Positions 121 through 52,798 of a stretch of DNA of 64,000 bases are shown in pieces; positions within the stretch are counted from its first letter, which is position 1, and every line of letters begins with the position of its first letter. The notes beneath the pieces are model-generated. The model was not told where the DNA came from, did not search any database, and saw only the letters and a list, made by a program, of their open reading frames with translations. This stretch comes from an uncultured Bacteroidota bacterium (GTDB taxonomy: Bacteria; Bacteroidota; Bacteroidia; Bacteroidales; P3), in the NCBI GenBank assembly GCA_902800395.1, contig CADCEC010000016.1, forward strand, positions 1 through 64,000. Reading direction: 5' to 3'. The position numbers were made by a program, and so were the translations under genes.

Positions 121-160
121 ACTAACCACTAACCCTAAACCTTAAACTTTAAACCTAATA
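121..160. repeat. 7-bp-period array between IS end and first lipoprotein gene
   Basis: About five degenerate 7-mers of the CTAACC/TAAACCT type follow one another. The rest of the 100-256 spacer is AT-rich with no recognisable gene. Confidence 0.6.
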
Positions 161-256
161 ACAACAATAAAAAAGGGATAAGGACGTTATTGATAATTAC
201 GGGATAGTTTTATATTGATTAGCAAACCAATTTAATAACTTTAAAAATCAAACATT

Positions 257-832
257 ATGAAGAAAACTTTATCAATCCTGATGGTCGCTTTTGCGATGAC
301 CGCGATGGTGGCTTGCAACAAGGACAAGGACAATGAAGACTCTCCGCTGAACATTGCCAACAACACGCTGGTATATGACGGCCAGACCTACACCTTCGAC
401 CATGTGGTGGTGGACTACTACCACAGTCAGCTCACTCTGATGGGTGCCTTCACCGATGACACACTTGAAAACGGCAGCCCCAAGCTCATGGTTCAGGGCA
501 TCCATATCATGCCTGAAGTCTGGAACAATAGTTTCGACCTAGCCGACGCCACTCAGTATCCCGATGGTGTGATGGTCTCTCTCCATCTTTACGGGGTGGT
601 GGAAATGACGTTCGAGATGTTTAACAATGGTGGAAACACCGGCGCTTACGGCACTCTCGACGGACAGGAATACGAGAATGAGTCAATCTTCAGCAGCGGT
701 ACCTACAGCGTCTCGGGCAACAACGATGGCACTCCCATTACTGTCACTTACGACGGTGTACTGAAGAACGGCAAGACGTTGAAGATGAAACTTGTTTCGG
801 ACAACTACCCCCTTGGCCCACAAGGGAGGTAA
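257..832 (+). CDS. Putative surface lipoprotein, unknown function
   Basis: The 191-residue product starts with a type II signal peptide (MKKTLSILMVAFAMTAMVAC) whose lipobox ends in Cys20. An acidic, Asn/Asp-rich linker (NKDKDNEDS) follows, typical of lipoproteins anchored in the Bacteroidetes envelope. The rest looks beta-rich and has no recognised domain. The gene lies just left of a second small lipoprotein gene on the same strand with a similar N-terminal plan (CNKDKD against CNKDED). The two may be distant paralogues and co-transcribed. Function is unknown. Confidence 0.75.
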   Translation: MKKTLSILMVAFAMTAMVACNKDKDNEDSPLNIANNTLVYDGQTYTFDHVVVDYYHSQLTLMGAFTDDTLENGSPKLMVQGIHIMPEVWNNSFDLADATQYPDGVMVSLHLYGVVEMTFEMFNNGGNTGAYGTLDGQEYENESIFSSGTYSVSGNNDGTPITVTYDGVLKNGKTLKMKLVSDNYPLGPQGR

Positions 833-883
833 CATCTCCATCGGTAACTTATTGAAAGTCGTATTGCTTCAAAAAAAATAACC

Positions 884-1390
884 ATGAAAACGCTTAAATT
901 TATCGTAGCACTTTGTGCAATAGGTCTTTGCTTTGCTTCGTGCAACAAAGACGAAGACAAGGGAAACGCATCCATCGAAGGCCGCTGGGAAGCTTTGCGC
1001 TTTGCAGACAACCCGGACGACATCGCCTTTGTAGCTATCTTTGTAGGTGAGAACCTCGACCTGTATGTTATCCCGTGGGGACAGCACATGGTGGGTACCT
1101 TTACTCTGACCAATGGAGTGATCAACTACAACATCACCGGGGCCTATCAGGCCTCCAGTGTCCCCGTCGCCTACGATGACGATGGCACCATGAACACCTA
1201 TTCGTGGTATATTGGAAACCTCGATGCCACCACACTCGAACTGACAGAAGGCTACAACTGGTACGCTATACGTGGCGTAGAATTTGAACGTGTCCAAGAT
1301 GATTTTGGTCAGTTTGAATTCAAGATCAGCGGAAATACCGCCACTAGTTCTTTGGTTGGCATCCCCGACCTGGTATTCCACAAAATATAA
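884..1390 (+). CDS. Small lipoprotein, unknown function
   Basis: The product has 168 residues with a lipoprotein signal (MKTLKFIVALCAIGLCFASC, Cys20) followed by NKDEDKGN. The mature part begins IEGRWEALRFADNPDD, reminiscent of lipocalin-like or DUF4488-type Bacteroidetes lipoproteins in which a GRW motif opens a small beta-barrel; this link is inference. It sits 51 bp after another lipoprotein gene and 15 bp before the alcohol dehydrogenase gene, so the three may form one transcript. Confidence 0.75.
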   Translation: MKTLKFIVALCAIGLCFASCNKDEDKGNASIEGRWEALRFADNPDDIAFVAIFVGENLDLYVIPWGQHMVGTFTLTNGVINYNITGAYQASSVPVAYDDDGTMNTYSWYIGNLDATTLELTEGYNWYAIRGVEFERVQDDFGQFEFKISGNTATSSLVGIPDLVFHKI

Positions 1391-1405
1391 TAGGCTGCAA
1401 GAGCC

Positions 1406-2578: not shown

Positions 2579-2583
2579 AACAT

Positions 2584-2613
2584 GTTGGCAGGGCCGTCGA
2601 CGGCTCCGCCAAC
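2584..2613. terminator. Hairpin between convergent genes
   Basis: GTTGGC (2584-2589) pairs with GCCAAC (2608-2613) around an inner GCCGTCGACGGC palindrome. It lies between the convergent alcohol dehydrogenase and PrsW genes. There is no clear U tract, so termination is only inferred from position. Confidence 0.4.
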
Positions 2614-2617
2614 GACC

Positions 2618-3664: not shown

Positions 3665-3709
3665 ATTACAACAATTTTTTATTCATAATATTTCATATTT
3701 TCTTTGTCT

Positions 3710-4915
<1,206 letters not shown>

Positions 4916-4916
4916 A

Positions 4917-5744: not shown

Positions 5745-5830
5745 AATGCCGACCGGAAGTCAGCGTTCCATTTTTCGTGAATTTCGAGGTGCAAAAATAC
5801 AAATTTTTTTCAAAACAGAATCAAAAAAAT

Positions 5831-5888
5831 GAAGCGCTGACATCCTATTGGCATAAAAAGAAGCGCTGACATCCTATTGGCATAAAAA
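5831..5888. repeat. Perfect 29-bp tandem duplication
   Basis: A 29-bp unit starting GAAGCGCTGACATCCTATTG and ending in GCATAAAAA occurs twice head to tail (5831-5859 and 5860-5888). It lies in the divergent spacer between vanW and korA, just upstream of the korA promoter, and may be a recent slippage event or a duplicated regulator site. Confidence 0.85.
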
Positions 5889-7823: not shown

Positions 7824-7833
7824 ATAACAATGG

Positions 7834-7945
7834 AAGTTAAAGAATTAAAGAAGTTATCGCGCTTCGCGCTAGAAGTTACAGACAATACCGCCTGCCGGAA
7901 CACTTGTCTTTAACTCCTTTAACTTCTTAACTTCTTTAACTCCCC
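7834..7945. repeat. Inverted 7-bp-type repeats in the korA-korB spacer
   Basis: GTTAAAGAATTAAAGAAGTT near the korA stop faces an array of TTTAACTTCTTAACTTC type before korB, so the spacer can fold into a long imperfect hairpin with GCGCTTCGCGC inside. It could tune the KorA:KorB ratio; that is inference. Confidence 0.55.
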
Positions 7946-8994: not shown

Positions 8995-9000
8995 GATTAG

Positions 9001-9028
9001 TTAAGAGTTAAGAGATAAAAGTTAATAG
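9001..9028 (+). repeat. 7-bp-period array after korB
   Basis: Four units (TTAAGAG, TTAAGAG, ATAAAAG, TTAATAG) lie between the korB stop and its terminator. Confidence 0.75.
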
Positions 9029-9032
9029 TTGG

Positions 9033-9120: not shown

Positions 9121-11262
9121 ATGAAGAAAATATTATTTACCCTCTTAGCAATGAGCATCTTAATGGGTGCTTCTGCGCAGAATAAGAAATGCGGTATCGA
9201 CACGAAGGCTTTGGTTGCAGAACAGATAGCCGCCGGTGCCACCCATATCGACATGCTGGCGAAAATGGCACCGAACTTCGACCGCGCCGTTTTCGAGAAG
9301 GCCGGTATCGTCTTCGGAGCCCAAGCGGGGCAGATTGTCACCATGAGTGTCCCTGTTGAAGCCCTCCCATTGCTGGAGAGTGCCAAAGAGGTGGTACAGT
9401 ACAGCATCTCGCATACCATTGCCGCCCCCGAATGCAACCAGGACCGTTTCGACACCCGCACCGACAGTGTACACCAGGGTCTCGGCGTCATCAATAACCT
9501 CGCTTACGACGGCGAGGGTGTGTATATCGGCATCACCGACTGGGGCTTCGACTATTCGCACCCCAACTACAATGCAGGCACAGGTAATCTGCGTCTGGAG
9601 ATGGCCTGGGATCACTTCAAGCTCTCGGGTCCCACGCCGGCTGACAAGGGCTATAGCGAAGGTCTCAACTATGGAACGCTTATCACCGACCATCTGAGAT
9701 CAGCGCAGGGGGATACTTCGAACCTCTACGGCTACGGCACCCACGGCACCCATGTGGCCGGCATCACTGCCGGACGCGGAGTGGACGGCGACCAGATGGG
9801 GCAGGCTCCGGGAGCCAAACTGCTATTCTGCTCTTTCGGCCTGGGCGAGAAGCCTTGGATGGACGCCGTTGCCTGGATGAAGCAGGTGGCACAGGACAGC
9901 TCGCGCCGACTGGTCATCAACAGTAGCTGGGGCATGTATTCTTTCAGCACCCTCGACGGTACCTCGCTGCTCAGCCAGGCCATCAACGCCTGGAGTGAGG
10001 AAGGTGTGGTGTTCTGCACCAGTGGCGGCAACAACGGCCACAACACCGTTCCCTTCCATATCAGCCGCACATTTCGCAGCGACACCATTGACACCCTACG
10101 CACCGTAGTGGTACGTGCCAGCGACATCTACAGCATCAGCGAGACTGGCCAGGTGCTCATCATGTGGGGTGAGGAGAACCACGACTTCAGCGCCTGCATC
10201 CGTCTCCGCAAAAATGACAGCACAATTTGGCACACGCCCATGTTCAGCACCGCTATGGGCGACACGGTCATCTATGACAGCATCGTCCATGAGGGCGTGA
10301 GCACAGGCTACCGCGTACTTGTCGAGCATGCCAATCCCTTCGACAACCGTCCCCATATCCAGATTGACATCAACAAGAACACCTTGCAGACGCAGCTCTT
10401 CATCACCGCCACTGAAGGTACCGTCCATGCTTGGAATGTGGCCAACAAGGAGAACCACGCCGGCAACGAAGGATGTAGTTTTTCTCAAGCAGGCCGCGAC
10501 GGATTCACCTCCGGCGACTCCTTCTATGGTGTCGGCGAGCCTGCCTGTGCCGCCAAGTGTATCAGCGTTGCCGCCCACAATCCCGACCGCTACAGCCAAT
10601 CCTCGGGCATCTACCGTATCGGTAGAATAGCCGACTTCAGCAGTGCCGGTCCCCTTATCAACGGTGTCAACAAACCCGAGATTTCCGCTCCGGGCGTCGA
10701 CATCGTCTCCTCCATCAGCTACTGGACCACAGGCACCTACCCCACCCTCCTCTCCACCTACGTGGGCAACAGAAAATACATCTGGTCCAGCATGAGCGGC
10801 ACCTCGATGTCGAGTCCCGCCGTCACGGGCGTTGTAGCCCTGATGCTCCAGGCCAATCCCAACCTCAGCGTCGAACAGATCCGCGAGATTATCTTCACCA
10901 CTGCCCGCAACGATAGCATCACGGGTCCCCTCGTGGCCAGCGGCACCATGGATGTGCACTGGGGCTGGGGCAAGATTGACGCCCTCCGTGCCGTGAACGA
11001 AAGCGTGCGCCGCGTGAGCATCAACGAGGTGGAGACGACACGCACCCCCCTGAAGGTTTTCCCCAACCCTACCACCGGCATGGTCACAGTTCATACGGGT
11101 TGCGGAGAGCAGCAGACCCTCTTCGTCTACTCCATCGACGGCCGCCTCGTACACCAGACTCCTGTCGCCGCTGAAACCACCCTTGATGCTAGCAGCTGGA
11201 ACCCGGGAATTTACATCCTGCGTGTCGGCAGCCGCACAGAGAAGTTAATAGTTAATAGATAA
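9121..11262 (+). CDS. Secreted S8 (subtilisin-like) serine protease with T9SS sorting domain
   Basis: The 713-residue protease has a Sec signal peptide (MKKILFTLLAMSILMGASAQ). Its S8 triad is visible: Asp140 in GITDWGFDYSHP, His208 in GTHGTHVAGI and Ser562 in MSGTSMSSPAV. A large insert between His and Ser is common in Bacteroidetes members. The C-terminus has a type A T9SS sorting domain (VFPNPTTGMVTV ... LFVYSIDGRLV ... LDASSWNPGIYILRV ... EKLIVNR). It should therefore cross the outer membrane by T9SS and act at the cell surface or outside. Its last codons run into a repeat array (11245 onward). Confidence 0.93.
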   Translation: MKKILFTLLAMSILMGASAQNKKCGIDTKALVAEQIAAGATHIDMLAKMAPNFDRAVFEKAGIVFGAQAGQIVTMSVPVEALPLLESAKEVVQYSISHTIAAPECNQDRFDTRTDSVHQGLGVINNLAYDGEGVYIGITDWGFDYSHPNYNAGTGNLRLEMAWDHFKLSGPTPADKGYSEGLNYGTLITDHLRSAQGDTSNLYGYGTHGTHVAGITAGRGVDGDQMGQAPGAKLLFCSFGLGEKPWMDAVAWMKQVAQDSSRRLVINSSWGMYSFSTLDGTSLLSQAINAWSEEGVVFCTSGGNNGHNTVPFHISRTFRSDTIDTLRTVVVRASDIYSISETGQVLIMWGEENHDFSACIRLRKNDSTIWHTPMFSTAMGDTVIYDSIVHEGVSTGYRVLVEHANPFDNRPHIQIDINKNTLQTQLFITATEGTVHAWNVANKENHAGNEGCSFSQAGRDGFTSGDSFYGVGEPACAAKCISVAAHNPDRYSQSSGIYRIGRIADFSSAGPLINGVNKPEISAPGVDIVSSISYWTTGTYPTLLSTYVGNRKYIWSSMSGTSMSSPAVTGVVALMLQANPNLSVEQIREIIFTTARNDSITGPLVASGTMDVHWGWGKIDALRAVNESVRRVSINEVETTRTPLKVFPNPTTGMVTVHTGCGEQQTLFVYSIDGRLVHQTPVAAETTLDASSWNPGIYILRVGSRTEKLIVNR

Positions 11263-11279
11263 TAGATAATAGTTTATAG
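11245..11279 (+). repeat. 7-bp-period array spanning a stop codon and a spacer
   Basis: Five 7-mers (TTAATAG twice, ATAATAG twice, TTTATAG) begin inside the last codons of the protease gene, include its TAA, and run up to the ATG of the next gene. Confidence 0.85.
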
Positions 11280-12272
11280 ATGCTGAAACTGTTCGAGAGA
11301 AACACCATTTTCCAAGTAGTCGTCATCCTTGTGGTGACGATACTGCTGTGGTTGCCTCATCTTGCCAGTCCTCAGCCCATGCCGGAGCCCGCCCCCTTTG
11401 CACCGCTCTACAGTCTGCTCTACAACTGTCATTTCTCCCCGCTACTTGCCGTACTCCTTGCCATCGTGCTTGTTGTCGGGGGCGGCATCCATCTCAATCT
11501 TATACTCGCCAACGTAGGACTCGTCTCGCAGAACAGTCTCTCCCCCACTCTCTTCTATATTCTCTTCATGAGTGCCACTGCCGACACCCTCTCTCCCACC
11601 CTTATCGTCGGCTTCCTCGTCATTGCTTTTGTCCGTCTGCTCCTGCTCCATAGCACACTACTCACCATCTCCTCCGACAAGGTTTTTGGCGCCACAGCCC
11701 TCATCGGCATCTGCTCCCTCTTCTACCTTCCCTCCCTGTTGCTGCTCTTGAGTTATCTTTTGGTAGCCGTGAGTTACCGACTCTACAGTTGGCGCGACTG
11801 GATGGTGCTTCTGCTTGGTCTTTTGGCACCTTACATCCTTCTGTGGACCGTTCTCTACCTGAACGACAGCCTTGCCGAGAGTTTCCCCGCTATGGCCGCC
11901 TCCCTCACCCCTCCTCAATTCTCGATTCTCATTTCTCAATTCTCTATTTCCCTCGTCGCCAACGGCATCCTCCTTCTTTTCTTCGCCGTCTCACTCTTCG
12001 TCCTCTGGCGTAGTTTCGGCGAGAAGACCACTCTCTGGCAGAAAAACGCCACCGCAGTGATGCTGCCTACCGTTTCCGCCATCGCGCTGATATTCTATGC
12101 CCCAGCCTTCCCCATCAACCTTCAGATCTTCGCCATTCCCTTCGCCCTCTGTGCCACTCTCCGTTTCACCTCCACCCACAGCAACAGTTTCGGCCGTCAG
12201 CGCCATCAGTGGAAAAATCACCTGAAAGACCTTCTGTTCCTTATCGTCATTGTTGCCGCCATCTTATGTTAG
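11280..12272 (+). CDS. DUF6427-type integral membrane protein
   Basis: This 330-residue protein is almost wholly membrane-embedded, with about eight to ten hydrophobic segments starting NTIFQVVVILVVTILLWLPH. Sequence style and position next to rnhB agree with the DUF6427 family, a Bacteroidetes group of unknown function often mislabelled as beta-carotene monooxygenase. A run of five 7-mers at 11916-11950 encodes the peptide PQFSILISQFSISL in frame. The stop overlaps the rnhB start (ATGTTAG), so the two genes are translationally coupled. Confidence 0.7.
   Translation: MLKLFERNTIFQVVVILVVTILLWLPHLASPQPMPEPAPFAPLYSLLYNCHFSPLLAVLLAIVLVVGGGIHLNLILANVGLVSQNSLSPTLFYILFMSATADTLSPTLIVGFLVIAFVRLLLLHSTLLTISSDKVFGATALIGICSLFYLPSLLLLLSYLLVAVSYRLYSWRDWMVLLLGLLAPYILLWTVLYLNDSLAESFPAMAASLTPPQFSILISQFSISLVANGILLLFFAVSLFVLWRSFGEKTTLWQKNATAVMLPTVSAIALIFYAPAFPINLQIFAIPFALCATLRFTSTHSNSFGRQRHQWKNHLKDLLFLIVIVAAILC
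11916..11950 (+). repeat. In-frame 7-bp array inside the DUF6427 gene
   Basis: Units CAATTCT, CGATTCT, CATTTCT, CAATTCT and CTATTTC follow without a break. The reading frame stays open. Confidence 0.85.
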
Positions 12273-12865
12273 AAGCTTGGAAAATAAAAGGGCGCCGTGA
12301 GGCGGGATGCGACGAGGCCGGACGCGGACCTCTGGCGGGACCTGTTGTCGCCGCCGCCGTCATCTTGCCCGACGGCTACAGCCATCCCCTCCTCAACGAC
12401 TCCAAGCAGCTCACCGAGCGTCAGCGCGACCGCCTGCGAACAGAGATAGTGCGCGATGCCGCTGCCTGGGCCGTCGCCGTCGTCGAGCCCGACGAAATCG
12501 ACCGTCTCAACATCCTCCACGCCTCCACACATGCCATGTGCCTCGCTGTGCAGCAACTCGCCGTCAAGCCCGAGTTCCTCCTCATCGACGGCAACCGCTT
12601 CTACAACGAGACCGACATCCCCTATGAGTGCATCGTCAAAGGCGACGCCAAATATATGTCCATCGCCGCCGCCAGCATCCTAGCCAAGACCCACCGCGAC
12701 GAGCTGATGGTGCAACTTCACAACGAATATCCCCAATATGGCTGGGACCGCAACAAGGGCTACCCCACCATCGAGCATTTCAACGCCATCGAGCAGTACG
12801 GTCCCTCGCCCTACCACCGCCGCTCCTTCAACCTCTACCGACAACACACGTTGTTTGAGAGTTAA
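12266..12865 (+). CDS. rnhB: Ribonuclease HII
   Basis: With the start at 12266 the product has 199 residues, normal for RNase HII, which cuts RNA in RNA:DNA hybrids and single ribonucleotides in DNA. Active-site blocks are AGCDEAGRGPLAGPV (Asp16, Glu17), LNDSKQLTERQR, and DGNRFY ... KGDAKYMSIAAASILAKTHRD. A further upstream ATG at 12209 would add 19 residues that only translate the end of the preceding gene, so the ATG overlapping that gene's stop is preferred. Confidence 0.95.
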   Translation: MLEAWKIKGRREAGCDEAGRGPLAGPVVAAAVILPDGYSHPLLNDSKQLTERQRDRLRTEIVRDAAAWAVAVVEPDEIDRLNILHASTHAMCLAVQQLAVKPEFLLIDGNRFYNETDIPYECIVKGDAKYMSIAAASILAKTHRDELMVQLHNEYPQYGWDRNKGYPTIEHFNAIEQYGPSPYHRRSFNLYRQHTLFES

Positions 12866-12905
12866 TAGATAAGATAAATAGATAATAGATAATAGATAAT
12901 AGTTA
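12861..12905 (+). repeat. 7-bp-period array between rnhB and DUF6913 gene
   Basis: GTTAATAG is followed by repeats of ATAATAG, filling nearly the whole 41-bp spacer up to the next ATG and covering the rnhB stop. Confidence 0.85.
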
Positions 12906-12906
12906 T

Positions 12907-18264: not shown

Positions 18265-19613
18265 ACCGGAGAATTCTGGGGCTGGCGTTGCCCAACATTG
18301 TGACCAATATCACCGTACCTCTGCTGGGCATGGTGGATATGGCCATTGTGGGGCATCTCTCGGGAGCGCACGTGAGTGCCATCGTGGTGGGCAGTTCCAT
18401 CTTCAACCTCATCTACTGGAACTTCGGATTTCTCCGCATGGGTACCTCGGGACTCACCGCACAGGCCTTCGGTGCCGAAAGGTGGAATGAGAGCCTGAAG
18501 ACACTGATACAAGCCTGCACCATCGCGTTGGCCATTGCGCTGCTGATTATTGTGCTACAATGGCCATTGGCAGAAGCCTCGAAGGTAATCTTCCGTAGCG
18601 ACCCATCGAACGGGCCCGGGGTGATGGACTTGGCGCTGACTTATTTCTTTGTGCGCGTGTGGGCGGCTCCCGCCACCTTGGGACTCTATGCCATCAAGGG
18701 CTGGTTCATCGGCATGCAGGACTCCAAAACGCCCATGTGGATAGCCATTGCGCTGAACTGCGTGAACATCCTGGCGTCGCTGCTCTTCGTGATGGTGTTC
18801 CATTGGGACATCTTCGGCGTGGCCCTCGGCACAGTGATTGCCAACTACACGGGTCTCGCCCTCGGCCTCTTCTTCCTTCACCGTAAACTTCATCGCGACC
18901 ACAACCTTTCCTCTTTCCACTTTAATCTTTCCACTCTTTCCAACGCACTGCACTGGAAAGACATGCGCCGCTTCTTCAAGGTGAACGGCGACGTGTTCCT
19001 CCGAACGGTATGCCTCTCTGCGGTGTTCACATTCATCACCGCAGCCAGCGGCCGCATCAGCGAGAATATACGTGCTGTCGACGGCATACTGATGATGTTC
19101 TTCACCCTCTTCAGCTACATTATGGACGGCTTTGCCTATGCCGGCGAAAGCCTCGTGGGGCGCCATATCGGTGCCCGACAACTGCGCCACCTGAAACTGG
19201 CGGTGCGACTGCTTATCGCCTGGGGGCTGGCATTGACGGTACTCTTCACAGGTCTCTACGCAGCCTTTGGTAATCAGTTCCTGCATATCTTCACCGACAA
19301 ACAGGATGTGATTGCCGCCACAGGCGAATATATGGGATGGGTGCTGGCAATACCCATCTGCGGTTTCGCGGCCTTCCTCTTCGACGGCATCTTCATCGGC
19401 GCCACCGCGACACGGACAATGCGCAACGCCATGTTCGTGGCCACGGGAGCCTTCTTCGCCATCTACTACGGACTGAAAGAATACTTCGGCACCGCCGACA
19501 TCCACACCTGGAACAATATCCTGTGGATTGCCTTTATGGTCTTCCTGACACTGAGAGGATTGCTGCAAGCAGTGCGGGTGAGGAGAGATGTGTATGGAAA
19601 AATTAACGGGTAA
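18261..19613 (+). CDS. MATE-family efflux transporter
   Basis: The 450-residue protein has the twelve-helix MATE layout in two halves: N-terminal LALPNIVTNITVPLLGMVDMAIVGHLSG and a second half with the VNGDVFLRT and GAFFAIYY regions. Family members export drugs or metabolites using Na+ or H+ gradients; the substrate is unknown. A 7-bp array at 18906-18941 encodes SSFHFNLSTL in a loop between helices. The start overlaps the Omp28-like gene, so the two are coupled. Confidence 0.93.
   Translation: MNRRILGLALPNIVTNITVPLLGMVDMAIVGHLSGAHVSAIVVGSSIFNLIYWNFGFLRMGTSGLTAQAFGAERWNESLKTLIQACTIALAIALLIIVLQWPLAEASKVIFRSDPSNGPGVMDLALTYFFVRVWAAPATLGLYAIKGWFIGMQDSKTPMWIAIALNCVNILASLLFVMVFHWDIFGVALGTVIANYTGLALGLFFLHRKLHRDHNLSSFHFNLSTLSNALHWKDMRRFFKVNGDVFLRTVCLSAVFTFITAASGRISENIRAVDGILMMFFTLFSYIMDGFAYAGESLVGRHIGARQLRHLKLAVRLLIAWGLALTVLFTGLYAAFGNQFLHIFTDKQDVIAATGEYMGWVLAIPICGFAAFLFDGIFIGATATRTMRNAMFVATGAFFAIYYGLKEYFGTADIHTWNNILWIAFMVFLTLRGLLQAVRVRRDVYGKING
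18906..18941 (+). repeat. In-frame 7-bp array inside the MATE gene
   Basis: Units CTTTCCT, CTTTCCA, CTTTAAT, CTTTCCA and CTCTTTCC. The word CTTTCCA also forms arrays in the GT9 (22424), DUF4105 (24264) and GT4 (40791) genes. Confidence 0.85.
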
Positions 19614-21892: not shown

Positions 21893-21923
21893 GTAATCCT
21901 AGGTAGCCCTAGGAGTTCCTAGA
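21890..21923. repeat. 10-bp CCTAG-phased array between convergent genes
   Basis: CCTAG words occur every 10 bp, three of them as the palindrome CCTAGG or AGGT/CCTAG junctions. The array begins with the patatin stop codon and ends just before the GT9 stop. Confidence 0.75.
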
Positions 21924-22890
21924 GTTGATTGAGAATTTTGTCGAAGACCATCTGGGGGGTAACAGCGCGCAGACAGCGGTAGTCCCCATAACGGCAGGTT
22001 TTCTGCCCAAAAGCCGAGCAAGGCTGGCACGGGAGGTTGGCGCAGAGGGCATTGGCGCGATTTTGTCCATAGCCATAGAAGCCGAAGTCGGGATGTGTAG
22101 CGCCCCAGATGGAGACCACAGGTACACCGAGGGCGCTGGCAAAATGCATATTGGCGGAATCCATCGAGACCATCAGCGTAAGGCCTTTGATAATCTCCAG
22201 CTCCTCTGCAAAAGATTGCTTTCCCGCCACCGATTCCACACCCGCCAGATTGTCAGCCAACGTTTCAAGTTTAGCAGCTTCCTCTTTGCTTCCGAAAAGG
22301 AGTACACGATAGCCTTTGTCTGCTAACATCTTAACAAGTTGCTCCACATTCTCCCACGGCCACACTTTTCCTGCATGCTGCGAGAAGGGCGCAATGCCGA
22401 TACCCACACCCTTCGTGGCGACACTTTCCTCTTTCCACTTTCCACTTTCCACTTTTGCAAGTCCAGCGCGACGGAAGGTATCGTCGTAACGTTGGTAATG
22501 AGGCTTGCGGGGCTTCCGGCACCAGTGGTGCAGGAAGAGCCAGCGCGAGAGTCGCCCCTTGCGGAGGGCGTAGATGCGGAAATGGAAGTCGAAAAGGTGG
22601 CGCAAGCGGAGCACAATGAGTGCCATACCCACGCGGTTCACCTTGTGGAGGTCCACCACTGTGTCGGCTCCCACTGCCTCCAATGCTTTGTATATCTTCA
22701 GGAAACTCTGCTTCTTCTTGAGACCAAGGAAATGCACGTTGGGTCTGCCCTCGAAGAGTGGCTGCAACAGTGGCGGGCCGGCAACAGTGAAAGTCACCTC
22801 AGGATTGGCAGCGGCATAATTGTCGAGCACAGGCGACATGATTGCCACATCACCCAACGCCGACAGCCTTATAACCAACACATGCTTCAT
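21919..22890 (-). CDS. Glycosyltransferase family 9 (heptosyltransferase-like)
   Basis: The 323-residue protein begins MKHVLVIRLSALGDVAIMSP, the hallmark of ADP-heptose:LPS heptosyltransferases of GT9. The C-terminal nucleotide-sugar domain contains GYRVLLFGSKEEAAKLETL and SMDSANMHFASALGVPVVSIWGATHPDFGFYG. It probably transfers a sugar in lipooligosaccharide core synthesis at the inner face of the membrane. A repeat array at 22424-22458 adds the peptide KVESGKWKEES in frame between the two domains. It is followed on the same strand by DUF4254, another lipopolysaccharide-associated gene family. Confidence 0.88.
   Translation of the reverse strand: MKHVLVIRLSALGDVAIMSPVLDNYAAANPEVTFTVAGPPLLQPLFEGRPNVHFLGLKKKQSFLKIYKALEAVGADTVVDLHKVNRVGMALIVLRLRHLFDFHFRIYALRKGRLSRWLFLHHWCRKPRKPHYQRYDDTFRRAGLAKVESGKWKEESVATKGVGIGIAPFSQHAGKVWPWENVEQLVKMLADKGYRVLLFGSKEEAAKLETLADNLAGVESVAGKQSFAEELEIIKGLTLMVSMDSANMHFASALGVPVVSIWGATHPDFGFYGYGQNRANALCANLPCQPCSAFGQKTCRYGDYRCLRAVTPQMVFDKILNQL
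22424..22458 (-). repeat. In-frame 7-bp array inside the GT9 gene
   Basis: Five units of CTTTCC(A/T) type on the plus strand read GGAAAGT on the coding strand and give a KVESGKWK peptide. Confidence 0.88.
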
Positions 22891-22953: not shown

Positions 22954-22999
22954 CAAACCTTTAACCATTAAACTTTAACCCTTAACCTTTAACCTTTAC
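22954..22999 (-). repeat. 7-bp-period array between DUF4254 and GT9 genes
   Basis: Six plus-strand units of the CTTTAAC / CATTAAA / CCTTAAC type cover the DUF4254 stop and part of the spacer. Further left (22930-22950) is GGCCTGCGACCACAG, similar to words in the 49.3 kb element. Confidence 0.8.
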
Positions 23000-23592: not shown

Positions 23593-23596
23593 GCAA

Positions 23597-23653
23597 CTAT
23601 TATCTATTAACTATTATCTATTAACTATAATCTATTATCTATTAACTTTTAAC
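23597..23653 (-). repeat. 7-bp-period array, eight units
   Basis: Plus-strand units alternate CTATTAT and CTATTAA, with CTATAAT once. They fill the spacer between the DUF4105 stop and the DUF4254 start, and encode the last residues of DUF4105. On the coding strand they read TTAATAG / ATAATAG, the same words as at 11245 and 12861. Confidence 0.9.
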
Positions 23654-33279: not shown

Positions 33280-33453
33280 TATGTTACGTATTTTTATTAA
33301 TAATTACTTTATCAAAATCAAATATCAACCAAAACGAAAAAAACGAAAAAAAATTGTGCAAACGAAAAGAAAAATATTTTTTAGCACCCACAAATCCTAC
33401 TTAACATAACCTCAAAAACACGTGTTGATTTTCAAACATTTAAGCCACCAAGT

Positions 33454-33495
33454 CTTACTCAACTCTTACTCCCCTCTTACTCCACCCTTACTTTA
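33454..33495. repeat. 11-bp-period array
   Basis: CTTACTC-type words recur every 11 bp (four copies) in the AT-rich spacer between gcvT and hflX. No gene is seen in 33280-33558. Confidence 0.7.
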
Positions 33496-33558
33496 GTCTT
33501 GGTTATGAAAGAGTTAGCATAGGTCAGAACAGACTCAAACAATATAAAAGTCTGAAAA

Positions 33559-34800
33559 TCAATAGAGGAAATTATTGTACGGATACCTAACAGCATGAAT
33601 ACGAGACACTTCCTCGTAGAGGAGGTTACGGAGGGCGTCGATGTTTTGTTTCTTGGCGGCGGAGATGTGGATGAATGCTTGATTGTTTGATTGTTTGATT
33701 GTTTGAGTTTTTTCTGCGTCAGCACTCAAGCATTCAAGCATTGACTCATTCAAGCAATCTATTTTGTTGTAGACCATAATGACGGGTTTGTCGTCGGCGT
33801 GGATGTCGGCGAGGGTCTTGTTCACGGCGTCGATTTGCGACTGGTGGTCGGGATGCGAGATGTCGACGACATGGATGAGGAGGTCGGCCTCGGAGACTTC
33901 GTCGAGGGTGGATTTGAAGCTCTCCACCAACTGCGTGGGTAGCTTGCGGATGAAGCCGACGGTATCGGTCAGGAGGAACGGCAGATTGCCGATGACCACC
34001 TTACGGACGGTGGTGTCGAGAGTGGCAAAGAGCTTATTCTCCGCGAGTACATCACTCTTAGCCAGTAGGTTGAGAATTGTAGACTTACCAACATTAGTAT
34101 AACCCACCAACGCCACTCGGACGAGACTCTCGCGATTCTTTCGCTGCAGCGTTTTTTGGGTGTCGAGTTTTGCAAGTTGGAGTTTGAGGGCGGAGATTTT
34201 CTCTTTGATGAGGCGGCGGTCGGTCTCTATCTGCGTCTCACCTGGACCGCGCATACCGATACCACCGCGCTGACGCTCGAGGTGGGTCCACATACGGGTC
34301 AAACGGGGCAACATATATTGAAGTTGCGCCAGTTCCACCTGTGTGCGAGCCGTCGAGGTACGAGCATGACGGGCAAAGATGTCAAGAATGAGGGTGGTAC
34401 GGTCAAGTATGCGGCACTCCATCTCTTTTTCCAAATTGCGGAGCTGTGCCGGCGAGAGTTCGTCGTCGACAACGATGATGTCGGCCGCGAGGGCATTCTT
34501 GTATTCCTTTATCTCATCAAGTTTACCTGAGCCAACGTAGGTACGGGTATCGGGACGCTCCAACTTCTGTATCACCTTATAAACAGTGACACCGCCGGCA
34601 GTGCGAAGGAGAAACTCCAACTCGTCGAGGTATTCCTCAGTGCGCTTGATTGTCTGGCCATTAGGACAGACGCTGACAAGGATGGCCTTCTCAGGAACCT
34701 CTTCGTTGACAAAGGTATTCCTCTCCTGAGGAGAAAGACGTTTCCCCTCCTCCCCGATGGAATTTCTGAATTTGCCTTTTTTATTTGGAGCGTACTGCAT
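33559..34800 (-). CDS. hflX: GTPase HflX
   Basis: With the ATG at 34800 the protein has 413 residues. It has the HflX N-terminal domain (AADIIVVDDELSPAQLRNLEKEM), the GGIGMRGPGETQIETDRRLI segment and a G domain with GYTNVGKST, DTVGFIRKLP and NKID. HflX splits stalled or hibernating 70S ribosomes in characterised species. Two 8-bp repeat arrays (33679-33707 and 33726-33757) are coded within the G domain near the C-terminus and produce TIKQSNNQ and LNESMLECL. An ATG 86 codons earlier would only read through the glycosyltransferase gene, so it is rejected. The chosen start overlaps that gene by 20 bp. Confidence 0.93.
   Translation of the reverse strand: MQYAPNKKGKFRNSIGEEGKRLSPQERNTFVNEEVPEKAILVSVCPNGQTIKRTEEYLDELEFLLRTAGGVTVYKVIQKLERPDTRTYVGSGKLDEIKEYKNALAADIIVVDDELSPAQLRNLEKEMECRILDRTTLILDIFARHARTSTARTQVELAQLQYMLPRLTRMWTHLERQRGGIGMRGPGETQIETDRRLIKEKISALKLQLAKLDTQKTLQRKNRESLVRVALVGYTNVGKSTILNLLAKSDVLAENKLFATLDTTVRKVVIGNLPFLLTDTVGFIRKLPTQLVESFKSTLDEVSEADLLIHVVDISHPDHQSQIDAVNKTLADIHADDKPVIMVYNKIDCLNESMLECLSADAEKTQTIKQSNNQAFIHISAAKKQNIDALRNLLYEEVSRIHAVRYPYNNFLY
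33679..33707 (-). repeat. In-frame 8-bp array inside hflX
   Basis: Three TTGATTGT units (plus strand) then TTGAG. The coding strand reads CAAACAAT and yields IKQSNNQ, the same peptide as in the META lipoprotein. Confidence 0.88.
33726..33757 (-). repeat. Second in-frame 8-bp array inside hflX
   Basis: Units TCAAGCAT, TCAAGCAT, TGACTCAT and TCAAGCAA on the plus strand. Confidence 0.8.
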
Positions 34801-35989: not shown

Positions 35990-36020
35990 ACTTCTTAACT
36001 CTTAGTTCTTACTTCTTAGC
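35990..36020 (-). repeat. 7-bp-period array between topoisomerase and GT4 genes
   Basis: Units ACTTCTT, AACTCTT, AGTTCTT and ACTTCTT fill the 31-bp spacer. Confidence 0.8.
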
Positions 36021-40264: not shown

Positions 40265-41328
40265 ATCTTATCTATTATTTTTATCAGTTTTAGTTTTTCT
40301 TTGTTCCAGTCCATATCTTCGCGGGCTTCGGCGAAATCTTCCTCTTTCCACTCCTTCGACAGCACACCCTTTACCGACTCCGCCAAATATCGGGCGCCCG
40401 CACCTCGCATAACCACGCCGACTCCAAATCGTCGCACCGCCGCAGCCATCTCCGGCAAATTGCTCACCACCATCGGCACACCGGCGGCAACAAAGTCACC
40501 GATACGGTTCGGTAAAGCAAAATGATAACTCAACCCTATATCTTCAAGCATCACAAGCCCCACACTCGCCTGTCTCGTCAACGGCTCCAGCTCCTCCGGT
40601 GTCAGCCTTCCGAGGAACTCGATGCGGTCACTCCACGGCTTGCTCTGGGCATATACCCTCATCTCCTCCAGCAGGTCGCCACCACCAGCAATCACCAGCC
40701 GGCAATCCTCCAGCCACTCCATCGCATCAATCGCCCAATTCACCCCCCTACCCTTATTCACACACCCCTGATACAGCAGCACCCTCCCCCCACTTTCCAC
40801 TCTCCACTTTCCACTCTCCACTTTCCTCTCTCCACACACATTCCTCACCACCGTCATCTCCACGCCGTACTTCTCCTTGTAGTAGTCGGCAATGCTCTGG
40901 CACACAGTGAATAATGCGTCGCATTTCGGCATAAGGCAACGCTCAATGGCGCGCCACACCCACTTTACCAGTGGCTTCTCTTGTATCTCTGGCACTTCAG
41001 GGAAGAGTTCGTGGGCATCCATCACCAGCCTCGCCTTCGTCCGACGGCAGACCTTTGCAGCAAACCAAGAACCAAGGAGTGTGTCTGTATCGTTGGCCCA
41101 AACTACATCGGGTCGTTCTTTCTTCAAGCACCGGAGAAGTTTCAGATTATATTCTGCGTAAAAAATCCATCCACGACAATGTTTGAGCACCAAGTCGTTG
41201 CGGCCGATGACAGACACCTCATAACCCGCCTCACGCAACGCTGCCACATGGCGCATCACCCTCCGGTCGGTCACCAAGTCATTGGTCACCGCCATCACAA
41301 TCCTCCTCGTTTCTCCACTGGCTCTCAA
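40261..41328 (-). CDS. Glycosyltransferase family 4
   Basis: The 355-residue GT-B protein has an N-terminal half with RVMRHVAALREAGYEVSVIGR and VWANDTDTLLGSWFAAK, and a C-terminal half with VLLYQGCVNKGRGVNWAIDAM and LPNRIGDFVAAGVPMVVSNLPEM (split by a helix). It should transfer a sugar to a surface glycan. A 49-bp repeat array (40791-40839) sits exactly between the two halves and adds ERKVESGKWRVESGG. A similar peptide is found in GT9 and DUF4105. Confidence 0.86.
   Translation of the reverse strand: MRASGETRRIVMAVTNDLVTDRRVMRHVAALREAGYEVSVIGRNDLVLKHCRGWIFYAEYNLKLLRCLKKERPDVVWANDTDTLLGSWFAAKVCRRTKARLVMDAHELFPEVPEIQEKPLVKWVWRAIERCLMPKCDALFTVCQSIADYYKEKYGVEMTVVRNVCGERKVESGKWRVESGGRVLLYQGCVNKGRGVNWAIDAMEWLEDCRLVIAGGGDLLEEMRVYAQSKPWSDRIEFLGRLTPEELEPLTRQASVGLVMLEDIGLSYHFALPNRIGDFVAAGVPMVVSNLPEMAAAVRRFGVGVVMRGAGARYLAESVKGVLSKEWKEEDFAEAREDMDWNKEKLKLIKIIDKI
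40791..40839 (-). repeat. In-frame 7-bp array inside the GT4 gene (seven units)
   Basis: Plus-strand units alternate CACTTTC and CACTCTC and end with CTCTCTC and CACACAC. The coding strand gives KVESGKWRVESG. Confidence 0.9.
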
Positions 41329-41435: not shown

Positions 41436-41900
41436 GTGAAAAACATCCTTAAAATACTCCTGCCGATACTGATAGCGATTACACTCACCGCCTGCGCCAG
41501 CACAGCCACTCAAGCAATCAAACAATCAAACAATCAAACAAATTCGCTTGACAAAGACCAAGTCTGGCAACTCGTTAAAATCCAGGGGCGCAAGGTTTCC
41601 AAAAACGACAAAACCGTCACTTTGACTTTCAATCCTGAAGCCGAAAGTTTTCGCGGCATGACAGCCTGTAACTTCTATGCCGGTACCTACACCCTCGGCG
41701 AATCCTCCCCAACCAATGGGCGACACTCCTTTTCCATCGTCACCTTTGGCTCAGGCTCTATCCTCTGCCCCGAGGCCGACATGAACGCCGAAGGACGCTT
41801 CCTCTCCGTGTTCGAAAAAGCCAACTACATCCTCATTGACGAATTCACCCTCTCCTTCTACCGCGACAACAAAGAAATCCTACTCTTCGAATTGCAATGA
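41436..41900 (+). CDS. META-domain lipoprotein (GTG start)
   Basis: From GTG at 41436 the product has 154 residues with a lipoprotein signal (VKNILKILLPILIAITLTAC, Cys20). The mature part is a META/HslJ-like domain (DQVWQLVKIQGRKVSKND, RGMTACNFYAGTY, LCPEADMNAEGRFLSVFEKA). Immediately after the lipobox an 8-bp array encodes QAIKQSNNQTNS as linker. An in-frame TTG at 41406 lies within the -7 box and is not credible as start. The stop overlaps the NUDIX start by 4 bp. Role in the envelope is unknown. Confidence 0.82.
   Translation: MKNILKILLPILIAITLTACASTATQAIKQSNNQTNSLDKDQVWQLVKIQGRKVSKNDKTVTLTFNPEAESFRGMTACNFYAGTYTLGESSPTNGRHSFSIVTFGSGSILCPEADMNAEGRFLSVFEKANYILIDEFTLSFYRDNKEILLFELQ
41511..41542 (+). 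repeat. In-frame 8-bp array inside the META lipoprotein gene
   Basis: Units CAAGCAAT, CAAACAAT, CAAACAAT and CAAACAAA. The same word in the same coding orientation is found in hflX. Confidence 0.9.
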
Positions 41901-48993: not shown

Positions 48994-49024
48994 GGCTTAC
49001 ATTAATATTATTCAATTCACGGTG

Positions 49025-49032
49025 CAAAGATA
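49025..49032 (-). promoter_or_regulatory. -7 box of the C10 peptidase gene
   Basis: Minus-strand TATCTTTG followed by CACC, 31 bp before the start. Confidence 0.6.
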
Positions 49033-49053
49033 AACTTTTTTCCTCACATGAAA

Positions 49054-49088
49054 CAAAAAAAAAGAGCATCCCGGAATGGAATGCTCTT
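49054..49088 (-). terminator. Intrinsic terminator on the minus strand
   Basis: AAGAGCAT (49062-49069) pairs with ATGCTCTT (49081-49088) and is followed on the minus strand by nine T. It would end a minus-strand RNA coming from the 49.1-49.3 kb element. Confidence 0.8.
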
Positions 49089-49090
49089 AT

Positions 49091-49520: not shown

Positions 49521-49775
49521 CAAGGGGGTCCCGCATGGGGCTTCCTCCGTTTTAGCCTCCGCGCGGCGTATCGGGCACAGCGGGCTTCCCCCACCCTGTC
49601 GCGCCAGCGAGAGGAAGATTGCCTCCGGCCCTTGGGAAAACAAACCGTTTCGGCTATCATAAAAACAAATCAAATCTACCGTTTTTTTCGGCTATCTGAT
49701 AAAAACACATAATATGCCGCTTTACCGATGGAAAGAATTCACTATATTACCTGATTACCTGTTCACATGATTACC

Positions 49776-49810
49776 TGAAAAATCAAAGAGCCACCCGTGG
49801 TAGGTGGCTC
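49776..49810 (-). terminator. Intrinsic terminator of the 49848-52764 minus-strand genes
   Basis: GAGCCACC (49788-49795) pairs with GGTGGCTC (49803-49810), followed on the minus strand by TTTGATTTTT. Confidence 0.85.
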
Positions 49811-49821
49811 TCATTTCCGAA

Positions 49822-49845
49822 CTGTCACGCTGTCACGGTGTCACG
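49822..49845. repeat. 8-bp TGTCACG-type array
   Basis: CTGTCACG, CTGTCACG and GTGTCACG in direct succession. A looser GATTACCTG repeat precedes the terminator at 49750-49778. Confidence 0.75.
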
Positions 49846-49847
49846 CC

Positions 49848-50282: not shown

Positions 50283-50331
50283 AACGTTTCATTTTTACGC
50301 GAATGACCATTAATTATCCATTAATTTCCGA

Positions 50332-50358
50332 ACACGAATAGCACGAATTACACGAATA
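50332..50358 (-). repeat. 9-bp ACACGAATA array in a spacer
   Basis: ACACGAATA, GCACGAATT and ACACGAATA. The reverse complement of the same words is the ATTCGTGTC array coded inside the primase gene at 52147. Confidence 0.85.
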
Positions 50359-50395
50359 ATTAATGGCCAATTACACGATAATTAATGTTTACCTT

Positions 50396-50462
50396 GAACT
50401 CTTAAACTTTGAACCTTGAACTCTTGAACTGACTCTAAACCCTCAACTCTTAACTCTAAACT
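50396..50462 (-). repeat. 7-bp-period array before the hypothetical gene
   Basis: About nine degenerate plus-strand units of the CTTGAAC / CTCTTAA / CCCTCAA type run over the end of the primase gene and into the spacer. Confidence 0.75.
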
Positions 50463-52764
50463 TCCTCAGGTACTCTTCGGTCTTAACGTACCTACCACTC
50501 GCCGCATCCATCGCTATGTACCCTCGGCTCGTCCATTTGCGCAAGGCGGCACCTCCGTCGTTGCTGCGTCCCTGGCTCTGCCGCATCAGCTGGTACTGCT
50601 CGCGGGTGAACTCGTCGGGCAAAAGCTCCAGCAGGTTCTGAGGCCCCGACTGCCGCTGTATCTCCACTTCCTCGCGCAGCTCCTTCTCCAGCTGCTGGCC
50701 GAAGTAGAGCATCTTGCACCAGAGGTTGTACTGCTGGCTCCACCGCACGAAGTCGGCTATCTCCCTGCTCCATTTGTAGCCGTGCGCCACATACAGCACC
50801 ATGCCCTTGAGCCAAGCAATGACGTTGGCGCGATAGCTGAACACGCGGTAGGCCTCCGAGTCGTAGAGTTTCGCGGCGTCGCTGTTCTCTTTCTTCATCT
50901 CGAGCGAGAGCTTCCGCGCCTGCGGACACTCAATCAAGCCGTTGCAAGCCTCCAGACGGTCGATGTAGGGCTTCAATTCGGAGGCAAACTGATGGTCATA
51001 GATGCCCAGGATGGGTGCCTCGTCGTCATCGTCGTTGCGGATGATGGTGGCCACATCGAGGCGGCTCACCGTGCCGTCGTTCACCATCTTGCCGAAGAAC
51101 TTGCGGGCGTTGGGCGGCGTGGTCGAGGCGTTGAAGTTCCACCGCAGGGGCGCGATGCCGCTCACCGAGTCGGCTCCCACTCGCTCCTGTCCGGCCATCG
51201 AGTTGTCGAAGGCCTTGCGGATGAGCAAACCCACCTCGTCCACCGTCCCTTTCGAGGTCACCTTCTTCAGGGCATCGATTTCGTCCACGATGGTGTAGAT
51301 GAAGCGTTCGCCGTTGTTGTTGGCATCCACGATACGCTGGTTGAAGACGGCATCCGTCAGGTTGTCGATGAGCATCTGGATGCAGATGTCGGTCGGACGC
51401 GGGTCTTTCTTCTGCTTGGCGCCGGGGTTCTTCTGCTTCCATTCGGCCTCGCGCTGGCGGTTGGGGATGTCGCGCTGGCGGATGTCCTCCATGATGTATT
51501 CGACGGGCTTCTTGATGGTGCCCTTGCCGATGCTCTGGCGGCCGATGAGGACGTTCATGAAGGTGGCCTCGTGGTCGACGTTGTCCCAGTAGCGGAACCT
51601 CACGCCGTGCAGGTGCGCCCCCAGCGCGGGGAAGACGGCGGCGGCCACGGCGGGCTTGTAGAACCACGGCACGTTCTTGGTGAGCAGCCGTACCAGCGGC
51701 GGCAGCTTCTTGGGCATCGGCGGCGGTGTGGTCGTGGTGCCACCGCAGGCCTTGATGGCTGACTGCGACTTCAATGCCGTCAGCACCTGCTTCAGGCGGT
51801 AGGGCATCCCCTCGCTCTTGGCCGAGAGGGCGCTCTCGATTTTACGGCGTTTCTCCCCCAGCGGGAAACCGTCGTAGCAGGGTATCACCTGGTCGAGCCA
51901 CTGGGCGTTGCGCCCGCAGATGTGCCTCAGGTCGCATGCCAGCTGGTAGGTCAGCGTGTCGCGGTCGCCCTCCTGCGGCTCCTTGCCGTCATTGAACATC
52001 TCCCAGTACTTGGCGATGATCTCCGTGAACGGGATGCCGTGATAGTCGAGGGGAAATTCGGCAGAAGATTGCGATTTTGAAAGATTTTCTATTAAATTTT
52101 TGTCAGATTTTTCGCGCAGCGACCCCTCCTCAGCCGAAGGCAAACTATTCGTGTCATTCGTGCGATTCGTGTTCGTTTTATCCGTTCCATCCGTCAAATC
52201 CGAGTTCGCCTTAGAAGCCTCCGTGTTCGCCTTGGCCTCAGCCACCTCAAAAATTTCGTCATCCAAGAAAATCAAGTCCTCCTCGCTCCCCGTCGTGGTG
52301 AAGAACACCCTCGTCACATCCTTTGCCCCTTTGTCGAACTCCACCCCCAGCAGCTCGCTCGCCCATCGCAAGTTCTCCTCCTGGCTCAGCTCCTCGCGGC
52401 GGCGGAACACCAGGTGGTACCCCGCGCCCCGCGCGCTCTTCTCCAGCATCAGCAACCCCAGCTCCTCCTTCTTCTCGAGTATGCGCTCTTTCACGCTCTC
52501 CATCTCTTCGGCATTGATGTGGTCGACATCCATCCCCACCGTGGTGCTCATCCGTGTGGCACCTTTCAGTTTCCCGTCCTCGCCCGGCAGGCACGAATAG
52601 TTCATCTGCGCCAGCCGCATCTTCAGCTTCTCGTCGCCGCCACGCACGGCCTTCACTATCGCCTTCTGTTTCTCGCTGTCGCGCAAAGCCATGTATTCCT
52701 CTCTGTTGAGGATGGGACGCATCACTTTCGCCCCATCCTTATAGTATATCAGGTGTGTACTCAT
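50443..52764 (-). CDS. VirE_N/BT4734-like and DUF3987-like primase/helicase-type protein
   Basis: The 773-residue protein starts with a VirE N-terminal (BT4734/BF3469-like) primase-related domain (RMSTTVGMDVDHINAEEM, SARGAGYHLVFRR, GAKDVTRVFFTT). The linker NTNRTNDTNSL is coded by 9-bp repeats. The C-terminal half is DUF3987-like with FMNVLIGRQSIGKGTIKKPV (P-loop-like) and TIVDEIDALKK (Walker B-like). Such proteins are common on Bacteroidetes mobile elements and are thought to take part in DNA replication of the element. The gene is in a minus-strand run with unknown genes on both sides. Confidence 0.8.
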   Translation of the reverse strand: MSTHLIYYKDGAKVMRPILNREEYMALRDSEKQKAIVKAVRGGDEKLKMRLAQMNYSCLPGEDGKLKGATRMSTTVGMDVDHINAEEMESVKERILEKKEELGLLMLEKSARGAGYHLVFRRREELSQEENLRWASELLGVEFDKGAKDVTRVFFTTTGSEEDLIFLDDEIFEVAEAKANTEASKANSDLTDGTDKTNTNRTNDTNSLPSAEEGSLREKSDKNLIENLSKSQSSAEFPLDYHGIPFTEIIAKYWEMFNDGKEPQEGDRDTLTYQLACDLRHICGRNAQWLDQVIPCYDGFPLGEKRRKIESALSAKSEGMPYRLKQVLTALKSQSAIKACGGTTTTPPPMPKKLPPLVRLLTKNVPWFYKPAVAAAVFPALGAHLHGVRFRYWDNVDHEATFMNVLIGRQSIGKGTIKKPVEYIMEDIRQRDIPNRQREAEWKQKNPGAKQKKDPRPTDICIQMLIDNLTDAVFNQRIVDANNNGERFIYTIVDEIDALKKVTSKGTVDEVGLLIRKAFDNSMAGQERVGADSVSGIAPLRWNFNASTTPPNARKFFGKMVNDGTVSRLDVATIIRNDDDDEAPILGIYDHQFASELKPYIDRLEACNGLIECPQARKLSLEMKKENSDAAKLYDSEAYRVFSYRANVIAWLKGMVLYVAHGYKWSREIADFVRWSQQYNLWCKMLYFGQQLEKELREEVEIQRQSGPQNLLELLPDEFTREQYQLMRQSQGRSNDGGAALRKWTSRGYIAMDAASGRYVKTEEYLRKFRVKS
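52147..52206 (-). repeat. In-frame 9-bp arrays inside the primase gene
   Basis: Units ATTCGTGTC, ATTCGTGCG and ATTCGTGTT, then TATCCGTTC, CATCCGTCA and AATCCGAGT. They encode a Thr/Asn/Asp-rich linker with a three-residue rhythm. Confidence 0.85.
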
Positions 52765-52768
52765 GTCT

Positions 52769-52798
52769 TTAAACTTTAAACGTTAAACTTTAAACTTT
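52769..52798 (-). repeat. 7-bp-period TTTAAAC array
   Basis: TTTAAAC, TTTAAAC, GTTAAAC, TTTAAAC fill the spacer between the 131-residue protein gene and the primase gene. Confidence 0.85.

Follow-up and report, generated by a model that had tools for sequence, protein, structure and literature searches.

Short tandem words recur throughout the window analysed here, a 64,000-nucleotide stretch of contig C16 in the 2.41 Mb, 21-contig genome of an uncultured rumen bacterium of the Bacteroidales, and they are a variant of the dispersed heptamer repeats already known from other bacteria, set apart by words that differ between species and by replacement within genes. The short tandemly repeated repetitive (STRR) heptamers were reportedly described in heterocystous cyanobacteria by Mazel in 1990 and, to judge from the title of a 1997 paper by Vioque, are said to occur inside the RNase P RNA gene. 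Like the cyanobacterial STRR, the arrays of the window are dispersed head-to-tail heptamers of several words that lie even within functional genes (the RNase P RNA gene for STRR); unlike those of that other phylum, they have periods of 7 to 11 and many words differing between sister species, and they lie in aminoacyl-tRNA synthetase genes. TAACTGA repeats are found in Beggiatoaceae, cyanobacteria and some Bacteroidetes (MacGregor 2015, PMC4679880). In the portions of that account considered here, these too are heptamer arrays between genes, commonly placed immediately before start codons, with stops in all frames, a minority in open reading frames (ORFs) and a patchy taxonomic distribution, but one word dominates, near variants are rare and ORF copies lie mainly at protein ends, whereas here the words vary by species and interrupt conserved enzymes. 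TAACTGA is not among the 40 commonest consensus words of our own-genome sample (464 kb: the window and 20 stretches of 20 kb, or 19% of the 2.41 Mb), although no genome-wide search for it was made. The G-rich heptamers GGGAATC and GGGGATT of Xanthomonas and Nostoc (PMC4692102) are likewise intergenic and vary in length and sequence at the same gene pair in close relatives; within the covered part of that account, there is one G-quadruplex-forming word type per group and in-gene replacement is not described. We tentatively read the arrays of the window as dispersed families of short words that spread between loci by short-patch copying, with selection deciding their survival, a reading whose chances we put a little short of even.

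The excess of such arrays is marked. Tandem Repeats Finder (TRF) was run on the window and on 20 local dinucleotide shuffles; rows with periods of 7-11 numbered 55 against 8.7 at scores of at least 30, 34 against 3.0 (maximum 8) at 35, 23 against 0.5 (maximum 3) at 40 and 13 against 0 at 50. The count of at least 25 places in an earlier note on this DNA is right in magnitude, as the rows scoring at least 35 merge into 32 places, but the weakest rows are no better than chance. By a strict lag-match test (match of at least 85% over at least 18 nt), the window holds eight arrays of period 7, two of period 8, one of period 11 and three of period 14, and 20 shuffles hold none. The 464 kb sample contains 79 arrays of period 7, 16 of period 8, 8 of period 9, 6 of period 10 and 10 of period 11, giving 119 against none of these periods in three shuffles of the sample. 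Tandem words beyond chance, in the window and in the genome, are thus confirmed. As for STRR, heptamers stand at many loci, but 40 of the 119 arrays have periods 8-11 rather than a unit of seven only. Longer periods were limited to 14 (15 arrays), 21 (2) and 28 (2), and the strict test returned no array of period 3-6, 12, 13, 15-20 or 22-25 in the sample. In relatives there are a few arrays of periods 6, 12, 13, 15, 16, 18 and 22-24, and periods 7 and 11 lead there as well. Extrapolated from 2.56 per 10 kb, the genome would carry about 600 arrays. An origin in assembly artefacts is unlikely, because most arrays are 25-60 nt long, less than a read, and the pattern is found in metagenome-assembled genomes (MAGs) from several projects.

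The earlier note had also claimed that the same words recur at unrelated loci and on both strands, and this holds well beyond the window. GTGGAAA/TTTCCAC is the unit of 26 of the 79 period-7 arrays in the sample, and GTGGAAAGTGGAAAGTG, a 17-mer of the GTGGAAA type, has 102 matches in the window genome (50 forward, 52 reverse), 26 in G012, 12 in G007 and 1-3 in six others, all 17-mer counts tallying overlapping registers of one array separately. The compared genomes are species representatives, mostly MAGs, and include 18 other species of the window genome's genus; this 17-mer has no match in 22 of the 31 genomes searched, G002 among them, and it is absent from all 12 of the genomes that belong to other genera. 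For GATGAGTGATGAGTGAT, of the GATGAGT type, there are 146 matches in G002, 36 in G007 and none in the other 29 genomes, the window genome included. GAAAATT and other words are common to several species. Word sharing among period-7 arrays was 0.095-0.242 within species and 0.001-0.122 between species, with one exception, G015-G008 (7 arrays each), in which it was higher between than within. The words are not one inherited common vocabulary; the vocabulary differs between species, and words turn over within one genus.

All the word types that had been named for the window were located in it (TTAATAG, CTTTCCA, CAATTCT, CAAACAAT, CTGTCACG, AATAGGACT, ATTCG, CTAGG and CTTACTC). Its arrays are given below, with the strand where one was assigned and with genes as called by our own gene caller; no known RNA family was found in the window at gathering score.

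111-156: degenerate period-7 arrays ACCACTA and AACCTTA in a spacer (TRF).
7833-7942, plus strand: paired period-9 element in the korA-korB spacer, a TTAAAGAAG-type array, a hairpin core (GCGCTTCGCGC and GACAATACC) and an inverted array TCTTTAACT.
8999-9030, plus: period-7 array AGTTAAG directly after korB.
11242-11279, plus: period-7 array TTAATAG/ATAATAG from the end of an S8 peptidase gene to the next start codon.
11914-11948, plus: period-7 array CAATTCT within gene 11280-12272 (no Pfam match).
12863-12906, plus: period-7 array ATAATAG (TTAATAG type) between the RNase HII gene and the following gene.
18906-18935, plus: period-7 array CTTTCCA within a MatE transporter gene (CTTTCCA type at 18906-18932).
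19642-19674: period-9 array AATAGGACT.
21889-21913: period-10 array of the CTAGG type.
22422-22457, minus: period-7 array GTGGAAA (CTTTCCA type) within a glycosyltransferase family 9 gene.
22956-22999, minus: period-7 array GGTTAAA in a spacer.
23595-23653, minus: period-7/14 array TTAATAG/ATAATAG in a spacer.
24262-24311, minus: period-7 array GTGGAAA/GCGGAAA (CTTTCCA type) within an Lnb-domain gene.
24768-24845: two arrays, CTATAGTCA (period 9) and ATAACCT (period 7), close to where the Lnb-domain gene starts.
33449-33500: period-11 array CAACTCTTACT in a spacer (CTTACTC at 33449-33492).
33672-33756, minus: paired period-8 element within a GTP-binding (HflX-like) gene, a GCTTGAAT array, core GTGCTGACGCAG and an inverted AATCAAAC array; the word CAAACAAT lies at 33672-33712.
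35992-36019, minus: period-7 array TTCTTAG in a spacer.
40782-40839, minus: period-7/14 array GTGGAAA/GTGGAGA (CTTTCCA type at 40790-40835) within a glycosyltransferase (GT4-type) gene.
41507-41543, plus: period-8 array AATCAAAC within a META-domain gene, again with CAAACAAT over this range.
49746-49846: period-8 arrays ATTACCTG and CTGTCACG (the latter at 49822-49846).
50331-50462: period-9, -8 and -7 arrays AACACGAAT, CTTGAACT and ACTCTAA (ATTCG type, period 9, at 50331-50359).
52147-52172: period-9 array ATTCGTGTC (ATTCG type).
52767-52801, minus: period-7 array TTTAAAG between two genes.

A 29-bp direct repeat of 2.2 copies at 5826-5888, upstream of korA, is not of the array type.

Orthologous sites hold different arrays in close relatives. 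Most of the relatives, which were named through KorB (the best 80 of 586), are MAGs of uncultured Bacteroidales, and many come from rumen. When the korA-korB spacer was compared with that of 15 relatives, 8 had arrays, of six kinds and with periods 8, 9 or 10, between 200-nt flanks 92-99% identical to those of the window; two had a 19-nt spacer and five no clear array. Two more copies of the TTAAAGAAG element that fills this spacer lie in the own-genome sample (L021, L027) and one lies at a different locus in L050, while a relative of the paired element in the HflX-like gene occupies the korA-korB spacer of L056 and L058. At the slot of the 11242-11279 array G002 has a GATGAGT-type array, the MatE-gene slot (18906-18935) holds different words in several relatives, the family 9 glycosyltransferase slot (22422-22457) an AAATCAG array in G004, and the Lnb-gene slot (24262-24311) GTGGAGA in G002. 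Among 577 array-by-species slots (131 arrays, 17 species), 235 hold an array: in 119 the period is shared but the word differs, in 106 the period itself differs and in 10 the consensus word is identical, in a relaxed test (75% match, periods 5-12) that scored near variants as different words and in comparisons that are non-independent, one slot being counted many times. The slots without an array are shorter in 247 cases, of similar length in 57 and longer in 38. A single array differs by 14 nt, or two units, between L053:19906-19943 and L054:19902-19928, so local slippage acts as well.

Arrays also lie within genes, including those for the MatE transporter, glycosyltransferases, the Lnb protein, the GTP-binding protein, alanyl- and methionyl-tRNA synthetases (AlaRS and MetRS), serine dehydratase, a fumarate-reductase-like flavoprotein and, in G010, the beta subunit of phenylalanyl-tRNA synthetase (PheRS-beta). 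In synonymous-codon shuffles of 321 genes, 33 arrays of period 7 were observed against 0.40 expected and 11 of period 8 against 0.05, but the frame-keeping periods were not above this null (period 6, 0 against 1.10; period 9, 1 against 1.20). The repetition therefore resides in the DNA and is not imposed by protein sequence, and the excess of frame-breaking periods implies that arrays enter genes ready-made rather than by growth unit by unit. In the own-genome sample 46 of 119 arrays are fully inside genes, 41 of these free of stops on the coding strand, while 62 of the 73 spacer or boundary words contain a stop on at least one strand. An arrayless ortholog was present in the fetched DNA for 38 of 117 in-gene arrays; the median array in these is 35 nt, and the median net length change is +10.5 nt (range -66 to +69), with 39% at or below +6 nt and a net change below half the array length in 22 of the 38. 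Replacement within genes is common, and plain insertion occurs too. In AlaRS, the first of the segments judged variable from alignments, as were all such segments, has GTGGAAA (period 7) in the window genome and, in both G002 and G014, the AATCAAGC word with period 8; the remaining 19 of the 22 genomes have no array there. The second has GTGGAAA in the window genome and GAAAATT in G002 at equal length, and the third has various 7-mer words across several species, again at equal length; for its G002 copy, an array was scored in 5 of 13 comparable orthologs. In MetRS the window genome carries an array of period 8 and G001 one of period 7, with none in the other 21 of 23 aligned, and the PheRS-beta array of G010 faces an arrayless segment of the same length in the window genome. 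RecJ genes (L252, L259) have a variable segment as well: in G012 a period-9 array was scored in it, and in the window genome a degenerate array can be made out there by eye.

This pattern is most simply explained if array sequence spreads between loci. Under the short-patch copying that we favour, a word would move from locus to locus within one genome when a short single-stranded or newly made stretch of an existing array serves as template or primer elsewhere, at a target chosen by a few matching bases (microhomology), so that some 20-60 nt are replaced or added at the recipient locus. Donors would be weighted by abundance: common words would donate most, a few would come to dominate and the winners would vary by species. 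Local slippage would then alter unit number, copying of one strand onto the other would give inverted pairs, and selection would sort the products, leaving stop-containing words in spacers and letting stop-free words survive in variable protein segments as well. We infer the copying act, its single-stranded intermediates, the microhomology and the rich-get-richer dynamics from the distribution of the words. A bolder version is conceivable but doubtful: a genome-wide drive would continually overwrite short tracts, codons of essential enzymes included, with the current words of the species, so that unrelated loci change their lexicon together and diverging species end up with entirely different ones. 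In short-patch double illegitimate recombination (SPDIR), a short tract is replaced by unrelated intragenomic DNA, and loss of RecJ is reported to raise its frequency. SPDIR is the nearest known mechanism by analogy, since in it, as in many of the in-gene cases here, a short tract is swapped with little net length change, though it is known as rare and isolated events rather than as a genome-wide spread of repeat words, and though RecJ is present. Several points weigh against copying. RecJ was found in 23 of 25 genomes, and its loss was accordingly rejected as the cause. In 16 of the 38 comparable in-gene arrays the net change is at least half the array length, several resembling plain insertions, and arrays in spacers add length (median spacer 105 nt with an array, 35 nt without). 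The mechanism does not predict a period range that begins at 7 and reaches 11, and the cores common to array pairs, described below, look more like a defined element. Lastly, the earlier note had suggested, as one of two options, that short arrays are copied between loci: the spread it implied stands as the simplest account, but no fresh copying event was seen among the compared genomes, all of them separate species.

Those cores belong to a rival that we consider unlikely, in which the arrays are non-autonomous mobile elements, each an array, a hairpin core and an inverted array moved in trans by a transposase or recombinase, and lone arrays are remains. Inverted partners within 150 bp are indeed frequent in the own-genome sample (17 of 79 period-7 and 7 of 10 period-11 arrays, against 4 and 0 at random places), and the period-11 arrays of the window genome are often near-perfect hairpins; 62 of the 79 period-7 arrays, however, have no partner. 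Over all species there are 119 inverted pairs, of which 63 have period 7-8 and a loop of at least 8 nt, and GCTGACGCA or GCTGCCGCA, with at most one mismatch, occurs in 16 of these 63 against 1.76 expected, with at least ten arm words and in nine genomes; the core is in 0 of 28 period-11 and 2 of 18 period-9 pairs. An array immediately precedes GCTGACGCA in 8 of 42 cases; for shuffled 9-mers the figure is 4 of 999. These counts are description and not an independent test, because the motif was first spotted by eye in the same data and was put to both tests afterwards; an unaimed scan of the words directly downstream of arrays places it 15th of 70, and it is listed in the flank scan for the window genome but absent from the lists for G002, G010 and G012. 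Small net length changes within genes suit insertion poorly, and the arms of one element type bear many unrelated words; the TTAAAGAAG element does recur at other loci and in L050. Y1 transposases, which would be expected wherever elements of the REPIN or Y1-transposase MITE kind occur, are found in 17 of 21 genomes; G006, G008 and G009 (72, 88 and 95% complete) gave no Y1_Tnp match, yet G008 and G009 bear 1.69 and 0.90 arrays per 10 kb, some of the stretches having been chosen at word or gene hits (several among those of G001, G002, G008, G010 and G012, whose densities lean high). The BrickBuilt miniature inverted-repeat transposable element of Porphyromonas gingivalis (PMC4596501) is likewise a small dispersed element, from a member of the Bacteroidales, that contains tandem repeats and has inverted ends. 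Its unit, in the portion of that account considered, is 23 nt, with a defined leader and tail and 19 copies, always intergenic, whereas our sample has no strict array of period 22-25 and the 46 in-gene arrays noted above. As separate observations, period-9 CCCAACTGT arrays at L016:771-1169 flank an AT-rich palindrome (842-867) and have inverted copies close by, and in the spacers at L012:13678-14153 and L028:131-205 arrays nested about the core GACAAATGCATTTGTTG take up nearly the whole length.

Independent replication slippage at each locus, by a polymerase favouring steps of 7-11 nt and certain words, seems improbable to us. A heptamer excess in many bacteria has been published, and slippage linked to the polymerase footprint proposed, in the part of that work considered here (PMC4692102), and the two-unit difference between L053 and L054 would fit. 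Some vocabulary words occur in viral contigs in 14, 25 and 13 stretches against 3, 1 and 9 for composition-matched controls, a weak hint of an intrinsic preference. Yet slippage of this kind accounts neither for the vocabulary, since sister genomes of similar composition differ by 102 matches to 0 for one word and 146 to 0 for another, nor for the in-gene periods: slippage-made simple sequence repeats would favour frame-keeping periods in coding DNA, and here periods 7 and 8 are enriched in genes and periods 6 and 9 are not. Arrays that differ, even in period, at one site in close relatives also speak against it. The claim of the earlier note that slippage of unrelated sequence does not suffice is therefore upheld, with one word making up to a third of the period-7 arrays, its 17-mer absent from a sister and the in-gene periods those selected against under slippage in place. 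Uptake signal sequences and DNA uptake sequences (USS/DUS) accumulate in genomes, and the words could likewise be, or hitch on, uptake or recombination signals with species dialects; this would agree with words that are particular to a species, occur in either orientation, are tolerated in genes and often form inverted pairs, and with a ComEC-type Competence domain in 17 of 21 genomes. We judge such a biased-uptake drive very unlikely, as many unrelated words of five periods in one genome and a tandem layout do not suit one receptor, or the one dominant, non-tandem 9-12-mer of DNA uptake sequences; ComEC is near-universal and little informative, and the array-bearing G007 and G010 (79% and 82% complete) gave no Competence match. 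Equally improbable is a selected regulatory or structural role, as start-site leaders, stop buffers or terminators. Of the TTAATAG-type arrays between co-directional genes in the own-genome sample, 9 of 10 are sense-oriented, a bias for which a stop-codon filter does not by itself account, and such arrays often run up to a start codon. Conserved cis-regulatory sites were nevertheless rejected, since arrays are not retained at orthologous spacers: under the strict test relatives have one in 2 of 32 cases where the window has an array against 18 of 57 where it has none, and under the relaxed test the figures are 16 of 47 and 19 of 42; nor would such a role extend to the arrays inside synthetase genes. 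Least credible is a telomerase-like reverse transcriptase adding template-copied repeats. Fixed words of 7-11 nt per genome would suit RNA templates, and the window genome has one RVT_1 match, but G002, the array-richest genome sampled (98% complete), has none, and this origin was set aside.

If copying between unrelated loci is what spreads the words, it would be a concerted, non-transposon route for inserting or replacing 20-60 nt, in essential genes included, and a source of new protein segments; it would explain the long-noted heptamer excess in some bacteria, and the segments that vary in conserved proteins could be parasitic DNA and not a product of adaptation. As the vocabulary would tag every event and sister species differ in it, the system would be directly testable. 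Our results hint at a little-known mode of bacterial genome self-rewriting in this rumen bacterium and its close relatives; a literature search, in which most subscription papers were out of reach, turned up no publication that describes a vocabulary of this species-specific kind for gut Bacteroidales. Over the 80 KorB loci, arrays per 10 kb were 3.24 at KorB identities of at least 95%, 1.22 at 83-94%, 0.00 at 78-82%, 0.19 at 65-72% and 0.51 at 60-64%, indicating that arrays are patchy and not restricted to the genus. Three copies of TTTTCAA occur in 7 of 109 genomes across the order, the window genome included, though a single word cannot gauge breadth. Outside the genus, arrays are patchy in four sets, and densities of as much as 13.7 arrays per 10 kb occur in some viral-collection contigs (36-70% G+C), so the process may extend further. 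Many heptamer words, at about 5-14 arrays per 10 kb, were seen at 44-70% G+C in L289 and L304 (the same viral-collection contig), L288, L291, L294 and L306.

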